A stretch of DNA of 64,000 nt from Pseudomonadota bacterium (GTDB lineage Bacteria > Pseudomonadota > Gammaproteobacteria > Steroidobacterales > Steroidobacteraceae). Where the stretch lies: assembly GCA_026398735.1 (NCBI GenBank), contig JAPLSH010000009.1:62001-126000 (forward strand), read 5' to 3'. This document shows, in pieces, positions 43,868 through 48,713 of this stretch. Under the pieces are notes generated by a model that saw only the letters and a program-made list of their open reading frames with translations, searched no databases and was not told where the DNA came from. Position numbers and translations under genes: made by a program. Within the stretch, counting starts at the first letter, position 1. The number at the start of each line of letters is the position of its first letter.

Positions 43868-45241
43868 ATGAAAACGGACCTGCGACTGCACGGCGGCCAC
43901 CGCCAGATTCTGGGGATGGCACTGCCCATTGCCGGCTCCCTGCTGGTTCCGCAACTCAACTTCATCACCAACAACATCTTCCTGGGTGGCCTGGGACAGC
44001 GCGAACTGGCATTAGCCGGCATCACCGGCGTTTATTACCTGCTGTTTGCCGCGCTGGGCCAAGGCCTGCACAGCGGTGTGCAGTCGTTGCTATCACGCCG
44101 TGCCGGCGAGGATCGCATCAGCAGCATCGGCACACTGTACCGTCAGGGCCTGTGGCTCTCGGCGCTGCTGGGGTTGGCCGGGGCGCTGCTTACCGTGGCA
44201 GTGGCGCCCGCGTTGTTGCGCTGGGCGATGGCAGATGCCGCCGATGCAGCAACGGCCGCGCACTTTCTGCAAATACGCATCTGGGGTTTGCCGCTGCTGT
44301 ATGCGTATCAAGCTCAGAGCGCTCTGCTGGTGGGTACCAACCGCAGCCATTTGCTGGTGATCGGTACTGCCATTGAAACACTGTGCAACATCGTGCTCGA
44401 TTACGCGCTCATCTATGGGCACTTTGGTCTGCCGGCACTGGGCTTTGACGGTGCCGCCGTGGCCAGTGTGTTGGCCGAAGGCCTGGGGTTAGTGGTGGCA
44501 GTGTCGGTCGTGCGCTGGTGTGGACTGCGCGCATGGCTGCGCCAACACGCGCAAGTCACAACGCGCCTGAGCTGGCATGGCGACGATGGTGTGGCAGCCA
44601 TCCTGCGGCAGTCGGGGCCGCTGATCCTGCAGTTCTCGGCAAGCTTGGCGGGCTGGGAATACTTCTACGTACTGGTCGAGCACCAGGGGCACTTGGCACT
44701 GGCCGTTTCTAACGCGATGCGCAATATCTTCGGCGTGGTCGGCTGTCTGAGCTGGGCGTTTGCCTCGGTGGCCAATACGATGGTCAGCAACCTTGTCGGT
44801 CAAGGTCGGCACAGTCAGGTTATGGCGCTTACGCTGCGACTAGCCAACTGGAATCTGCTGCTAAGCGGCGTGCTGTGTTTGCTGCTTAACGTGGCGCCAG
44901 AGACCATCTTGTCAGTCTATGGGCAAGGTGATGCGTTCGTTACTGCGGCCACGCCGGTGCTGCGTGTAGTGACTGTTGCGATGCTGCTGATGGCGGTGAC
45001 TGTGGTGTGGATGAACGCGGTGACAGGCACCGGCAACACGCGGGTCAATCTGTATACTGAATTGGTCGCGATCAGCGCGTACTGCATACATGTTTGGGTA
45101 GTGCTCGAAACTTGGCATCTGCCCATCGTCTGGGGCTGGGCCGGTGAATGGCTCTACTGGATCATCCTGCTGGTCCCCTCTTATTTCTACATGCGCAGCG
45201 GCCGCTGGATCAGCCGCACCGCGCCGGAATCTTCATCATGA
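43868..45241 (+). CDS. MATE-family multidrug/toxin efflux transporter
   Basis: A 457-residue protein with about 12 membrane spans in two halves. MATE features include ALPIAGSLLVPQLNFITNNIFLGGLGQRELALAGI, GLGQGLHSGVQSLLSR-type helix 2, QAQSALLVGTNRSHLLVIGTAIETLCNIVLDYALI and the repeat half with AVSNAMRNIFGVVGCLSWAFASVANTMVSNLVGQG. It should export cationic compounds by H+ or Na+ antiport. Its stop overlaps the rnd ATG (ATGA), so the two are coupled. Confidence 0.88.
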   Translation: MKTDLRLHGGHRQILGMALPIAGSLLVPQLNFITNNIFLGGLGQRELALAGITGVYYLLFAALGQGLHSGVQSLLSRRAGEDRISSIGTLYRQGLWLSALLGLAGALLTVAVAPALLRWAMADAADAATAAHFLQIRIWGLPLLYAYQAQSALLVGTNRSHLLVIGTAIETLCNIVLDYALIYGHFGLPALGFDGAAVASVLAEGLGLVVAVSVVRWCGLRAWLRQHAQVTTRLSWHGDDGVAAILRQSGPLILQFSASLAGWEYFYVLVEHQGHLALAVSNAMRNIFGVVGCLSWAFASVANTMVSNLVGQGRHSQVMALTLRLANWNLLLSGVLCLLLNVAPETILSVYGQGDAFVTAATPVLRVVTVAMLLMAVTVVWMNAVTGTGNTRVNLYTELVAISAYCIHVWVVLETWHLPIVWGWAGEWLYWIILLVPSYFYMRSGRWISRTAPESSS

Positions 45242-46335
45242 GCACACGCCCCCTCACCGGCGCAGATACACAGCAATTGGCCGACTTGGCCACAGAGCTG
45301 GAGCAGTCTGCCGTCATCGGACTCGATACCGAGTTTCTGCGCGAACGCACCTACCGGGCGCAACTGTGTCTGGTGCAACTGGCGACAGACCGCGACTGTT
45401 ACCTGGTGGATCCGCTGGGCAACACGCAGCTATCCGTGCTGCAACCGGCGCTGGCCTCATTGCAGTCCGTCAAAATTTTGCACGCAGCGCGTCAGGATCT
45501 TGAAGTGCTGTTTCCGGCGTTCGGTAGCGTGGGCAATGTGTTCGATACGCAAGTGGCTGCCGGCTTGGCTGGTATGCCGGCACAGGTCGGGTATGCCGAT
45601 CTGGTCAAACGATTGCTTGGCATAGAGCTGGACAAATCACATACGCGCACCGACTGGTCGCGCCGACCGCTCAGCGCTGCACAGCTGATGTATGCCGCAG
45701 AAGATGTACGCCATCTGGCGCCGCTGCGGCAGTTGCTGCTGGAACAATTGGACAAGCTCGGTCGTGTCAGTTGGCTCGACGAAGAACTGCTTGGGCTGGT
45801 AGCTGGCGACAGCCTGTTCGTTGATCCGGACCGTGCTTGGGAAAGACTCAAAGGCATTGCAGAACTGGATGAAGACCGCCAACGCCTGGCGCGCCTGCTT
45901 GCAGCCTGGCGTGAACGGCGCGCTTCAGACAGAGACCGCCCGCGCTCTTGGATACTCGATGACACCGGGCTGCGCGCTTTGGTGGCGCAGGTACCACGCA
46001 CTGCAGTAGCACTGGCACAACTGCCGGAACTTGCACCGGGCTTCATCGAGCACAGTGGCAGTGAGATTCTCGCGCTGATTGATAGTGCACAACTGCCTGC
46101 GGCGCTGCCGCCATTACCCGGGCGCACGCGACCGGATGCAGATGCCACTGCGCGCCTTAAGAAGCTATCTGGAGTGGTGAGCGAGGTGGCTGCGGCACTG
46201 GGCCTTGGCAGCGAGATTCTCGCGACGCGCCGCGACCTGGAACAGGTCGCGGGCGGCAACGCAGGAGCTGCCCCGCTGCGCGGCTGGCGTCGCGCCGCTA
46301 TAGGCGACGCATTGCTGGCTGCACTGCGGGGCTGA
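45238..46335 (+). CDS. rnd: Ribonuclease D
   Basis: 3'-5' exoribonuclease that trims tRNA and small RNAs. The 365-residue product has DEDD-family motifs: VIGLDTEFLRE (Exo I), ILHAARQDLEVLFPAFG (Exo II) and LMYAAEDVRHLAPL (Exo III). An HRDC-like helical region follows (DRQRLARLLAAWRERRASD). The ATG at 45238 overlaps the MATE gene end. It converges on adk with only 4 bp between. Confidence 0.93.
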   Translation: MSTRPLTGADTQQLADLATELEQSAVIGLDTEFLRERTYRAQLCLVQLATDRDCYLVDPLGNTQLSVLQPALASLQSVKILHAARQDLEVLFPAFGSVGNVFDTQVAAGLAGMPAQVGYADLVKRLLGIELDKSHTRTDWSRRPLSAAQLMYAAEDVRHLAPLRQLLLEQLDKLGRVSWLDEELLGLVAGDSLFVDPDRAWERLKGIAELDEDRQRLARLLAAWRERRASDRDRPRSWILDDTGLRALVAQVPRTAVALAQLPELAPGFIEHSGSEILALIDSAQLPAALPPLPGRTRPDADATARLKKLSGVVSEVAAALGLGSEILATRRDLEQVAGGNAGAAPLRGWRRAAIGDALLAALRG

Positions 46336-46339
46336 GCCC

Positions 46340-47314
46340 TTACTTGGCCTTGGCGGGGGCCTTCTTAGCAGCCTTTTTAGCAGCCTTCTTGGCAGCCTTC
46401 TTGGCTACCTTCTTGGCGGCTTTCTTAGCAACGGTCTTCTTGGCGGCCTTTTTGGCAGCCTTCTTTGCGGTCTTCTTCACTGATTTCCTCTTAGTCTTCT
46501 TGACGGTTACAACGGCTGCTTTCTTGGCAGCCTGCTTCGACACTTTAACAGCAACTTTCCTTGAAGCGGACTTCGCTGCTTTCTTGGCAGCTTTCTTGGC
46601 CGTCTTCTTCGCTGTCTTCTTGGCTGTCTTCTTGGCCACTTTCTTCTTGGCTTTGGGCACTGGCTTCAATGCTGCAACCAGCAATGCAGTGATGGCATCA
46701 ACGTTGCCCTGTGCATTGATGCTGCGCAGCAAGCGGCGCGCTTGGTAGAAGCCAACCAACGGACGCGTCTGCTCCTCAAACACCTGCAAACGCCGCGCAA
46801 CTGTGGCCTCAGTGTCATCAGGACGCTGAAACAATTCGGGACGGTCCACACACTTATCGCAGCGCTGCTCACTGCCAGCAGGCATTGAATGGATATTGAA
46901 TACGCTGCCGCACTTGGGGCAACTGCGGCGACCTGAAATGCGACGTGTGAGTTCGGCGTAATCGACCTCCATCAATACGACGCGTGTCAGCGGCTGACCG
47001 ATTTGGGCCAGCAACTGCTCGAGCGCCGCCGCCTGCACCAAGTTGCGCGGAAAGCCATCGAGGATAAAACCCTTGGCAGCATCCGGCTCGGCAAGGCGCT
47101 CGCGAATAACGCCCAACATGATCGAGTCATCGACCAGCTTGCCGGCCTTCATGACCTCACCGGCCACGACACCCAGCGGCGTACCGCGCGCCACAGCAGA
47201 GCGCAGCAAATCGCCAGTGGATATTTGCGGAATGCCAAAGCGTGTTACGAGCCGCTGTGATTGCGTGCCTTTACCCGAGCCCGGTGCGCCGAGCAGAACA
47301 ATGCGCGTGGTCAT
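46340..47314 (-). CDS. adk: Adenylate kinase with a C-terminal histone H1-like Lys/Ala tail
   Basis: Interconverts AMP + ATP and 2 ADP. Residues 1-216 are a normal Adk: P-loop GAPGSGKGT (9-17), STGDLLR, KGFILDGFPRN, and a zinc-binding LID with C132-x2-C135 and C152-x2-C155. Residues about 217-324 are an added tail of KKAAKK/AKKTAKK repeats: roughly 46 lysines in the last 104 residues, with almost no acidic residues. This resembles histone H1-like, AlgP and HctB tails. The ATG at 47314 has GGGAGA about 6 bases upstream; longer open frames are unsupported. There is no frameshift between kinase and tail. A role in nucleic-acid or polyphosphate binding is inference. Confidence 0.92.
   Translation of the reverse strand: MTTRIVLLGAPGSGKGTQSQRLVTRFGIPQISTGDLLRSAVARGTPLGVVAGEVMKAGKLVDDSIMLGVIRERLAEPDAAKGFILDGFPRNLVQAAALEQLLAQIGQPLTRVVLMEVDYAELTRRISGRRSCPKCGSVFNIHSMPAGSEQRCDKCVDRPELFQRPDDTEATVARRLQVFEEQTRPLVGFYQARRLLRSINAQGNVDAITALLVAALKPVPKAKKKVAKKTAKKTAKKTAKKAAKKAAKSASRKVAVKVSKQAAKKAAVVTVKKTKRKSVKKTAKKAAKKAAKKTVAKKAAKKVAKKAAKKAAKKAAKKAPAKAK
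46346..46662. repeat. Low-complexity region encoding the adenylate kinase tail
   Basis: About 315 bp built from imperfect 9-12 bp units such as TTCTTGGCAGCC and TTCTTAGCAGCC, reading as Lys-Lys-Ala-Ala-type codons on the minus strand. Units vary at wobble positions, so this is selected protein composition more than recent DNA duplication. Confidence 0.75.
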
Positions 47315-47417
47315 AACCAATCTCCCAAACATAATGGCCGCGTACGGCAGCCTTCTGGCACAGTACCGGCCAAGTCTTAACGGGTCAAACCAGCCTTTCT
47401 TCGCACTGGAGCGCCGC

Positions 47418-48713
47418 ATGAGCAACAAGTCCACTGCAACTCGCCGCAAAACACCGCCGCGTAACGCATTCTACGCGCAGTCCGGCGGTGTTACCGCAGT
47501 CATCAACGCGTCTGCTGCTGGCGTCATCGAGACGGCTCGACGCTATCCACGCCAAATCGGCACCGTGTATGCGGGCCGTCACGGCATCATCGGTGCACTC
47601 ACCGAAGACCTCATCGACACCAGCCTCGAGTCACCGGCAACCATTAAAGCGCTGCGGCACACGCCTTCCGGTGCATTCGGTTCAGCTCGATTCAAGCTCA
47701 AGGGACTGGAGCAAAATCGCGCCGAGTACGAGCGCCTCATTGAGGTATTTCGTGCGCATGACATCGGCTACTTCTTCTACAACGGCGGCAACGACTCGAT
47801 GGACACCGCACTCAAGGTGTCGCAAATCGGCGAAGCGCTGGGTTATCCGATCACCTGCGTGGGCATCCCCAAGACAGTAGACAACGACCTGCCTCTGACC
47901 GATTGCTGCCCGGGCTTCGGCTCTGTGGCCAAGTACATTGCGGTCTCGACGCGCGAAGCGGCTATGGACGTAGCGTCCATGGCCCGCACATCCACCAAAG
48001 TGTTCGTGCTGGAAGTCATGGGCCGTCATGCCGGCTGGATTGCTGCAGCAGGTGGTCTTGCAGGCAGCAAGGCCAGTGATGCACCCCATGTCATCCTGTT
48101 TCCCGAGATCGCCTTCGACAAGCCTGCGTTCCTGGCCAAGGTAAAACACAGCGTCGATACCAACGGCTACTGCGTGATCGTCGTTTCTGAGGGCACTCAC
48201 TACGCCGATGGACGCTTTCTTGCTGAAGCAGGCACCCGCGATGCATTCGGCCATGCGCAGCTGGGAGGCGTCGGGCCGGTAGTGGCCAACATGGTCAAAG
48301 AAGAGCTCGGCTACAAGTATCACTGGGCAGTGGCCGACTATCTGCAGCGCGCCGCACGTCACATCGCCTCAAAGGTGGATGTCGAACAAGCCTATGCGGT
48401 GGGCAAGGCGGCGGTGGAGTTCGCGATTGCTGGTCGTAACGCAGTAATGCCGGCCATCATCCGCAAGTCTTCCAAGCCGTATCGCTGGAGCATAGAGGCT
48501 GTGCCGCTGGCGGCTGTGGCCAACGTCGAGAAAACCGTGCCACGCAACTTCATCACGGCTGACGGCTTCGGCATCACGGCGGCCTGCCGTCGTTATCTGG
48601 AGCCGCTGATCGCAGGCGAAGACTATCCGCCCTACAAAAACGGTCTGCCCGACTATGTGCGCATCAAGGGCAAATCGGTACGGCGCAAACTCAAGACAAC
48701 CTGGAAGCTGTGA
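47418..48713 (+). CDS. pfp: Pyrophosphate-dependent 6-phosphofructokinase
   Basis: Phosphorylates fructose-6-phosphate reversibly, using PPi instead of ATP. The 431-residue product has GGNDS (123-127), where Asp126 replaces the Gly of ATP enzymes. PKTVDND (151-157) has Lys152, the classical PPi-type signature, and MGRHAGW is at 201-207. The ATG at 47418 is preceded by GGAG 7 bases upstream. It diverges from adk and leads a cluster with an outer-membrane candidate and H+-pyrophosphatase, suggesting shared PPi use. Confidence 0.92.
   Translation: MSNKSTATRRKTPPRNAFYAQSGGVTAVINASAAGVIETARRYPRQIGTVYAGRHGIIGALTEDLIDTSLESPATIKALRHTPSGAFGSARFKLKGLEQNRAEYERLIEVFRAHDIGYFFYNGGNDSMDTALKVSQIGEALGYPITCVGIPKTVDNDLPLTDCCPGFGSVAKYIAVSTREAAMDVASMARTSTKVFVLEVMGRHAGWIAAAGGLAGSKASDAPHVILFPEIAFDKPAFLAKVKHSVDTNGYCVIVVSEGTHYADGRFLAEAGTRDAFGHAQLGGVGPVVANMVKEELGYKYHWAVADYLQRAARHIASKVDVEQAYAVGKAAVEFAIAGRNAVMPAIIRKSSKPYRWSIEAVPLAAVANVEKTVPRNFITADGFGITAACRRYLEPLIAGEDYPPYKNGLPDYVRIKGKSVRRKLKTTWKL

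Follow-up and report, generated by a model that had tools for sequence, protein, structure and literature searches.

The window, by which we mean the whole 64,000-nucleotide stretch of DNA analysed here, encodes an adenylate kinase (Adk) whose reading frame continues past the enzyme into a long run of lysine and alanine, and this locus raises the question of what such a tail does on a central metabolic enzyme. A sequence-only reading of the same DNA had suggested that the tail could hold Adk to the nucleoid, the ribosome or polyphosphate (polyP), and had favoured polyP.

The adenylate kinase and its tail

The enzyme core is complete (Table 1). It scored 228 bits against the curated model TIGR01351 (cut-off 168) and 255 bits against NF001380 (cut-off 251), matched the Pfam families PF00406 and PF05191, and its closest chain in the PDB is an Adk, with an alignment that covers residues 5-216. 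The LID carries four cysteines, and the zinc itself is predicted. Residues G9, G12, G14, K15 and G16 as well as R38, R90, R125, R129, R164 and R175 are invariant in 25 aligned Adks; we take them to be the P-loop and the catalytic arginines, roles that are predicted for the window enzyme. In the AlphaFold2 model, pLDDT averaged over blocks of 10 residues is 85-95 in the core. The model matches and the four LID cysteines confirm the complete zinc-LID core of the sequence-only reading, and its coordinates, the uninterrupted frame from core to tail and the 4-bp spacing to the convergent rnd, measured from stop codon to stop codon, hold as well. For rnd we adopt the name given by that reading, presumably correct, and the start of this ORF may precede the true start. 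The Adk family has a single match in the window's own genome, which is 98.4% complete, and the tailed enzyme is probably the sole Adk there.

Table 1. Features of the adk locus in the window, with the evidence for each.
Feature	Positions	Strand	Basis
adk open reading frame, 324 aa (ATG at 47314, stop at 46340-46342)	46340..47314	-	
Adenylate kinase core (CORE, NMP-binding and zinc-LID domains; residues 1-216), intact	46667..47314	-	NCBIfam/Pfam, PDB alignment, AlphaFold2
LID zinc-ribbon, cysteines C132, C135, C152, C155	46850..46921	-	PF05191 ADK_lid at residues 129-166
Lys/Ala-rich basic tail, residues 217-324, net charge +49	46343..46666	-	composition, pLDDT
adk stop codon, 4 bp from the rnd stop	46340..46342	-	sequence
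rnd (ribonuclease D-like, putative), convergent with adk, outside the tail	45148..46335	+	ORF
Phosphofructokinase, divergent neighbour of adk	47418..48713	+	ORF 47043-48713, ATG at 47418

The 108 residues of the tail comprise 47 Lys, 33 Ala, 2 Arg and 3 Pro with no Asp or Glu, close to the earlier estimate of about 46 Lys in 104 residues, and the net charge of the whole protein is +55. The pLDDT of the tail is mostly below 50, with 52-70 near residues 291-320, and some helix is tentatively predicted in it. Long, rich in Lys and Ala, poor in acidic residues and predicted from the low pLDDT to be disordered, the tail has the character of H1-like and AlgP-type tails, and this composition, together with the family matches of the core, supports the earlier description of an intact Adk that ends in a basic, H1-like tail. 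KPAA repeats are absent from it, and the tail alone matched no Pfam family at E-values up to 1. Apart from adk, no stop-to-stop frame of at least 80 aa in the window has 10 or more Lys among its last 40 residues. The spacing of Lys and Arg along the tail peaks at multiples of four, and its nine KKAA units are written in eight DNA spellings, so simple DNA slippage is not the source of the repeat. The opposite-strand ORF at 46344-46748 is the same repeat read backwards, and it needs no explanation beyond that.

A sequencing error or false frameshift where core and tail meet is highly improbable as the source of the tail, and we rejected it. In a second genome of the genus (G002; the window's own genome is G000), frame and junction are identical to those of the window, and tails of different sequence occur in four further congeners; the frameshift or misassembly that the sequence-only reading had named as evidence against the fusion was not seen at this junction. 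Indel errors are possible in the assembly; none was found at adk, but the rpoD region of G000 has a frame break. The RpoD frame concerned (G000:C22:37170-37334, L234), which was found by the tail query, has a long AK-rich N-terminal extension, and the break apparently lies inside this repeat; it may be a true frameshift or an indel of the assembly. In L242 (G185), a stretch of unread bases lies within the Adk tail; repeats of this kind may break assemblies and hide tails.

Occurrence of the tail among relatives

Sixty genomes from the window's own genome, genus, family and order were searched, and a protein match was obtained in 58 of them, some consisting only of tail-like or partial stretches. 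A tail was scored when it had at least 40 aa, a K+R share of at least 20% and an excess of K+R over D+E of at least 12, cut-offs that we chose ourselves. In the window's family, Adk is tailed in 14 of 32 readable genomes and untailed in 18 (G005, G007, G009, G015 and G033 are family genomes without a full Adk), and in the other families of the order it is tailed in 4/22, untailed in 17/22 and cut by a contig end in 1/22. G054 (L068), cut by a contig end, was entered as not tailed in these family and order counts. Within the genus, G001, G002, G004, G006 and G008 are tailed besides the window's own genome, G003 is plainly tail-less, and no Adk match was obtained in G005 or G007. No relic of a tail was seen in G003, where the frame after the stop codon resembles, by eye, the reverse of the neighbouring gene. 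Since the tail is missing from 18/32 family members, G003 among them, it is dispensable for Adk as such, and any benefit that it brings is conditional. Tail-less close relatives, which the sequence-only reading had counted against its own proposal, therefore do exist, yet the tail is a recurrent trait and not an oddity.

A survey of the class, covering 274 genomes including the window's own, yielded an Adk match in 256, of which at least 54 carry a tailed Adk. This 54/256 is a lower bound: the 54 tailed loci, each from a different genome, were found among 89 loci read in 86 genomes, and these 89 came from the better-scoring among the matches listed. L242 and L323 were entered as not tailed in the class and composition counts. 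Beyond the class, tailed Adks were found in Bradyrhizobium, in another member of the Hyphomicrobiales and in a record from the Myxococcales. A quick tree was built from 167 cores, with no tail state assigned to L068, L242 or L323. On it, parsimony required at least 17 changes of tail state, five of them forced by well-supported branches, against a mean of 55 after shuffling and with 0/500 shuffles as low. The tail is therefore heritable but often gained or lost.

Tails were found on 70 of 116 Adks with a four-cysteine LID, on 8/22 with at least three cysteines but without the motif and on 4/29 with neither, an association biased by the drawing of class loci from better-scoring matches; all four tailed Adks of the last group are alphaproteobacterial. 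In G101 and G195, where a second Adk copy was read, one of the two copies has a tail and the other has none, and G297 has a putative tailed second copy cut by a contig end. In G191 (C31:8217-8966), the Adk match runs through four TGA codons, which may reflect recoding, a pseudogene or chance extension past a stop.

Charge, selection and other tailed proteins

The sequence-only reading had proposed a comparison of tail length and Lys content among homologues. Length varies from 47 to 318 aa among the 79 closed tails and the choice between Lys and Arg varies too, with Arg-rich tails such as that of L036 (33 R and 14 K), but the K+R share is stable, with a median of 39% and no correlation with whole-locus GC (rho -0.12, p = 0.27). 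K/(K+R) declines with GC (rho -0.53, p = 6e-7, n = 79), and so does the choice of Lys over Arg in the tails of the succinyl-CoA ligase alpha subunit SucD described below (rho -0.69, n = 27). Four of the 171 loci were left out of the composition set (L079, L080 and L083 as partial, L084 with no Adk found). The median charge of the whole protein is +56 for tailed and -5 for untailed Adks. Because the basic share is kept while Lys or Arg follows GC, what selection maintains seems to be charge and disorder and not a fixed sequence. Such a pattern fits a polyanion tether, and it argues against lysine-specific modification as the core function.

Selection on the tail itself was read from the two congeners G000 and G002. 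Their cores differ by 30 synonymous and 6 non-synonymous changes (uncorrected pN/pS 0.069) and their tails by 5 and 1 (uncorrected pN/pS 0.061, a figure drawn from six changes), besides two in-frame indels of four residues each in the tail. When neutral evolution of the tail was simulated at 0.5 substitutions per site, a stop codon arose in 94% of runs and the mean number of D/E was 8.5; the tails found in the genus, six with that of G000, are 96-114 residues long and contain 0 or 1 D/E each. These comparisons indicate that the tail is under purifying selection, with a pN/pS as low as that of the core, although the tail figure comes from only six changes. The earlier claim that the tail is unlikely to be neutral drift thus stands through the low pN/pS (few changes), the near absence of D/E in congeners and the kept basic content; it does not rest on the argument that it was made with, from fusion to an essential enzyme.

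Adk is not the only tailed protein of the genome. The strict pattern AKKxAKK gave 26 matches at seven places in G000 and none in the reversed control. Besides adk, these places include genes for a SET-domain protein, SucD, a 118-residue protein and the ribosomal silencing factor RsfS. The last two are single matches on contig C27; the first falls in a frame of 20 residues, and at the second the filter found no repeat frame. SucD (G000:C18:69498-70661; L104:1459-2622, minus strand) ends in a 100-residue KKAA tail and RsfS (G000:C27:54699-55214; L114:1132-1647, plus strand) in a 59-residue Lys/Ala tail. With tails scored at 30 aa or more, K+R of at least 20% and K+R minus D+E of at least 8, again our own cut-offs, SucD is tailed in 27/32 genomes of the family and 0/20 of other families of the order, and RsfS in 10/34, seven of the ten within the genus, and 0/23. 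The SET-domain protein (G000:C2:3996-4655; L091:955-1614, plus strand) also has a KKAA tail, with tailed relatives in G002, G003 and G005, and the 118-residue protein (G000:C20; L111:1183-1536, plus strand) is Lys-rich at its ends and matched no Pfam family at E-values up to 0.001. Among other family members, L085 (G011) and L086 (G017) encode glyoxalase-like domain proteins with long basic tails, the domain being assigned by Pfam for L085. The window's family has thus put similar tails on several core proteins, and beyond the family, in a class survey that covered Adk and SucD, it was Adk on which tails were seen.

Adk and SucD tails were then compared genome by genome. Within the family, both are tailed in 13 genomes, Adk alone in 0, SucD alone in 12 and neither in 5 (Fisher p = 0.052). 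Elsewhere in the class, no SucD tail was found at 29 loci in 28 genomes with tailed Adk (30 asked, 28 matched), and a fixed pairing was rejected: since the two tails do not keep company there, they form no fixed partner set. The adk and sucD tails are more alike within than between genomes (one test in 12 variants, with n = 13 or 10, gave p from 0.0001 to 0.013), but after correction for composition p was 0.013-0.19, and most of the likeness is shared composition. Exact DNA words common to the two tails of a genome measure 9-21 bp, with a mean of 14.9 against 12.3 at random (p 0.001). With words this short and likeness mostly of composition, gene conversion between adk and sucD is not claimed.

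These data bear on whether the tail needs a partner at all. It might be a labile, weakly selected low-complexity extension that grows and shrinks by in-frame repeat changes and is tolerated at the exposed C-terminus of Adk, while selection removes no more than stops and residues that are acidic or hydrophobic. The parsimony changes on the quick tree, the four-residue indels between G000 and G002, the wide range of lengths and the mostly compositional likeness of adk and sucD tails would all agree with this, but the low tail pN/pS, the varied spellings of the KKAA units and a content of D/E and stops far below the neutral simulation speak against it, as does the repeated appearance of tails on one enzyme in separate lineages. 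Slow diffusion and a burden on ribosomes would also be expected of a very basic enzyme, judging from work on charged GFPs (PMC5726854). We regard such an extension as unlikely.

Candidate partners of the tail and known systems

Our preferred reading, to which we give a probability of roughly 0.45, takes the tail for a disordered tether to polyanions, of which ribosomes or RNA are the most likely. Under it, a strongly positive, disordered C-terminus, selected for net charge and disorder and not for a fixed sequence, would keep Adk on abundant intracellular polyanions and slow its diffusion. The tail would strengthen a weak contact with the ribosome, as is known for untailed Adk of E. coli, and would place AMP recycling (AMP + ATP -> 2 ADP) beside translation, where tRNA charging is a source of AMP. 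The E. coli enzyme is reported to bind ribosomes in a quinary interaction with a Kd of 3.7 uM and altered kinetics, its Vmax being halved and its inhibition by ATP eased at 1 uM ribosome (PMC6471074); it has no such tail and makes the contact through its core. In E. coli, +25 GFP is reported to bind mainly ribosomes and not DNA, and free positive cytoplasmic proteins to be essentially absent from E. coli, L. lactis and H. volcanii, the positive ones sticking to ribosomes; according to the same paper, high charge is no guarantee of ribosome binding (PMC5726854). The analogy is limited in that the charge there lies on a folded surface and here on a disordered tail. In the window and its relatives, the charge of the enzyme, the low pN/pS, the recurrence on Adk and the RsfS tail in the genus speak for a tether. 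From these we infer polyanion binding; the ribosome as main partner, with local AMP recycling or modulation of activity as the benefit, lies a step further from the data. Among the papers listed by our searches of the open-access literature, there was no binding study of a tailed Adk.

DNA remains a serious rival ligand, since the H1-like bacterial tails of AlgP, HupB and FrzCD sit on DNA or polyP granules. The Adk tail may, like those of AlgP, PhaF, HupB and FrzCD, bind DNA without sequence specificity and hold Adk in the nucleoid. Its composition is that of H1-like tails and its Lys/Arg spacing has the four-residue period already mentioned; the C-terminal domain of HupB, with PAKK and KAAK motifs, is reported to be needed for nucleoid association (PMC5676037), and a basic tail is reported to hold FrzCD, not a chromatin protein, on the nucleoid (PMC5716589). 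On the other side stand the preference of +25 GFP for ribosomes (PMC5726854), the low proline content and hence the lack of a KPAA pattern, and the want of an obvious reason for Adk to be on DNA. We consider the nucleoid possible but on balance doubtful.

The ligand favoured by the sequence-only reading fared worse. According to it, the tail would dock Adk on polyP granules as the site of AMP/ADP/polyP exchange. In E. coli, Adk is linked to polyP:AMP phosphotransferase activity. The window's genome has both PPK1 and PPK2, and AlgP, with its H1-like tail, has been located on polyP granules (PMC9239181). Across the sixty genomes, the own one included, PPK1 was found in 16/18 tailed and 28/35 untailed genomes (p = 0.70), and PPK1 or PPK2 in 16/18 and 31/35 (p = 1.0), so that no association with the tail emerged. 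Two tailed genomes, G011 (99% complete) and G029 (96%), have no match to either kinase, which weakens the idea, and Arg-rich tails such as that of L036 oppose a lysine-specific role. The neighbouring phosphofructokinase, presumably of the PPi type as the sequence-only reading assigned it, was offered as a pointer to polyP, but among family and order loci with long flanks a homologue adjoins 14/14 tailed and 14/15 untailed Adks, and we rejected this neighbour as the cause of the tail. Docking on polyP thus seems more unlikely still than a weakly selected extension. In the class set (L236-L264), among loci with long flanks, 12/20 tailed and 0/6 untailed Adks have a phosphofructokinase homologue next to them; there the neighbour may be a lineage marker or reflect a functional link.

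We thus rank the putative explanations with ribosomes or RNA first, the nucleoid second, a weakly selected extension third and polyP fourth. A bolder form of the ribosome reading, which we think somewhat unlikely, is that the repeated mooring of Adk to ribosomes by basic tails makes it an AMP-recycling station of translation, a device that the window's family would have extended to succinyl-CoA ligase alpha and the genus to RsfS; the result would be a charge-held, ribosome-associated phosphotransfer assembly and an exception to the rule of negative free cytoplasmic enzymes. The tail makes a central metabolic enzyme strongly positive here and in many other lineages, and SucD joins it in one family, against the near absence of free positive cytoplasmic proteins described for E. 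coli, L. lactis and H. volcanii. Whether bacteria place energy enzymes by charge becomes a question testable with one truncation, and tailed proteins that are modelled as plain adenylate kinase or succinyl-CoA ligase may act unlike their textbook relatives.

Tailed Adk is an already catalogued kind of protein through the curated NCBIfam model NF010381 (PRK13808), the long Adk of the Bradyrhizobium type, which like the window protein joins an Adk core to a long Lys/Ala-rich tail. Three Bradyrhizobium loci (L021, L024, L026) and one of the Hyphomicrobiales (L020) scored 453-479 bits over nearly the whole protein, above the cut-off of 426; the window protein scored 205.2 and is not a member. The zinc LID of the window enzyme is missing from the cores of these four alphaproteobacterial proteins, and their tails and that of the window may be independent gains, which the quick tree cannot date. 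Among the open-access papers listed, none had a lysine-rich Adk tail as its subject. Within the reach of those searches, what is new is the tail on a zinc-LID Adk, the spread through the class, the repeated gain or loss, the conservation of charge and not sequence, and the SucD and RsfS tails.

Among better-studied proteins, AlgP and PhaF of Pseudomonas share with the window enzyme a long, disordered, positive, Lys/Ala-rich C-terminal tail on a non-histone domain (PMC9239181); AlgP repeats KPAA where the window tail repeats KKAA with few prolines, and the carrier here is a metabolic enzyme whose binding is putative. Mycobacterial HupB has a PAKK/KAAK-type tail (PMC5676037) and MDP1 a long C-terminal disordered region (PMC5974015), both akin to the tail of the window, and chlamydial Hc2 is reported to vary in size with the number of its lysine-rich pentamers (PMC2848022), as the Adk tail varies in length; HupB/MDP1 and Hc2 are DNA-binding histone-like proteins, whereas the carrier in the window is Adk. 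FrzCD of Myxococcus xanthus offers the parallel of a positive tail by which a protein with a different task is held on a large polyanion, and differs in that the tail is N-terminal, the carrier is a chemoreceptor and nucleoid binding was shown there (PMC5716589).
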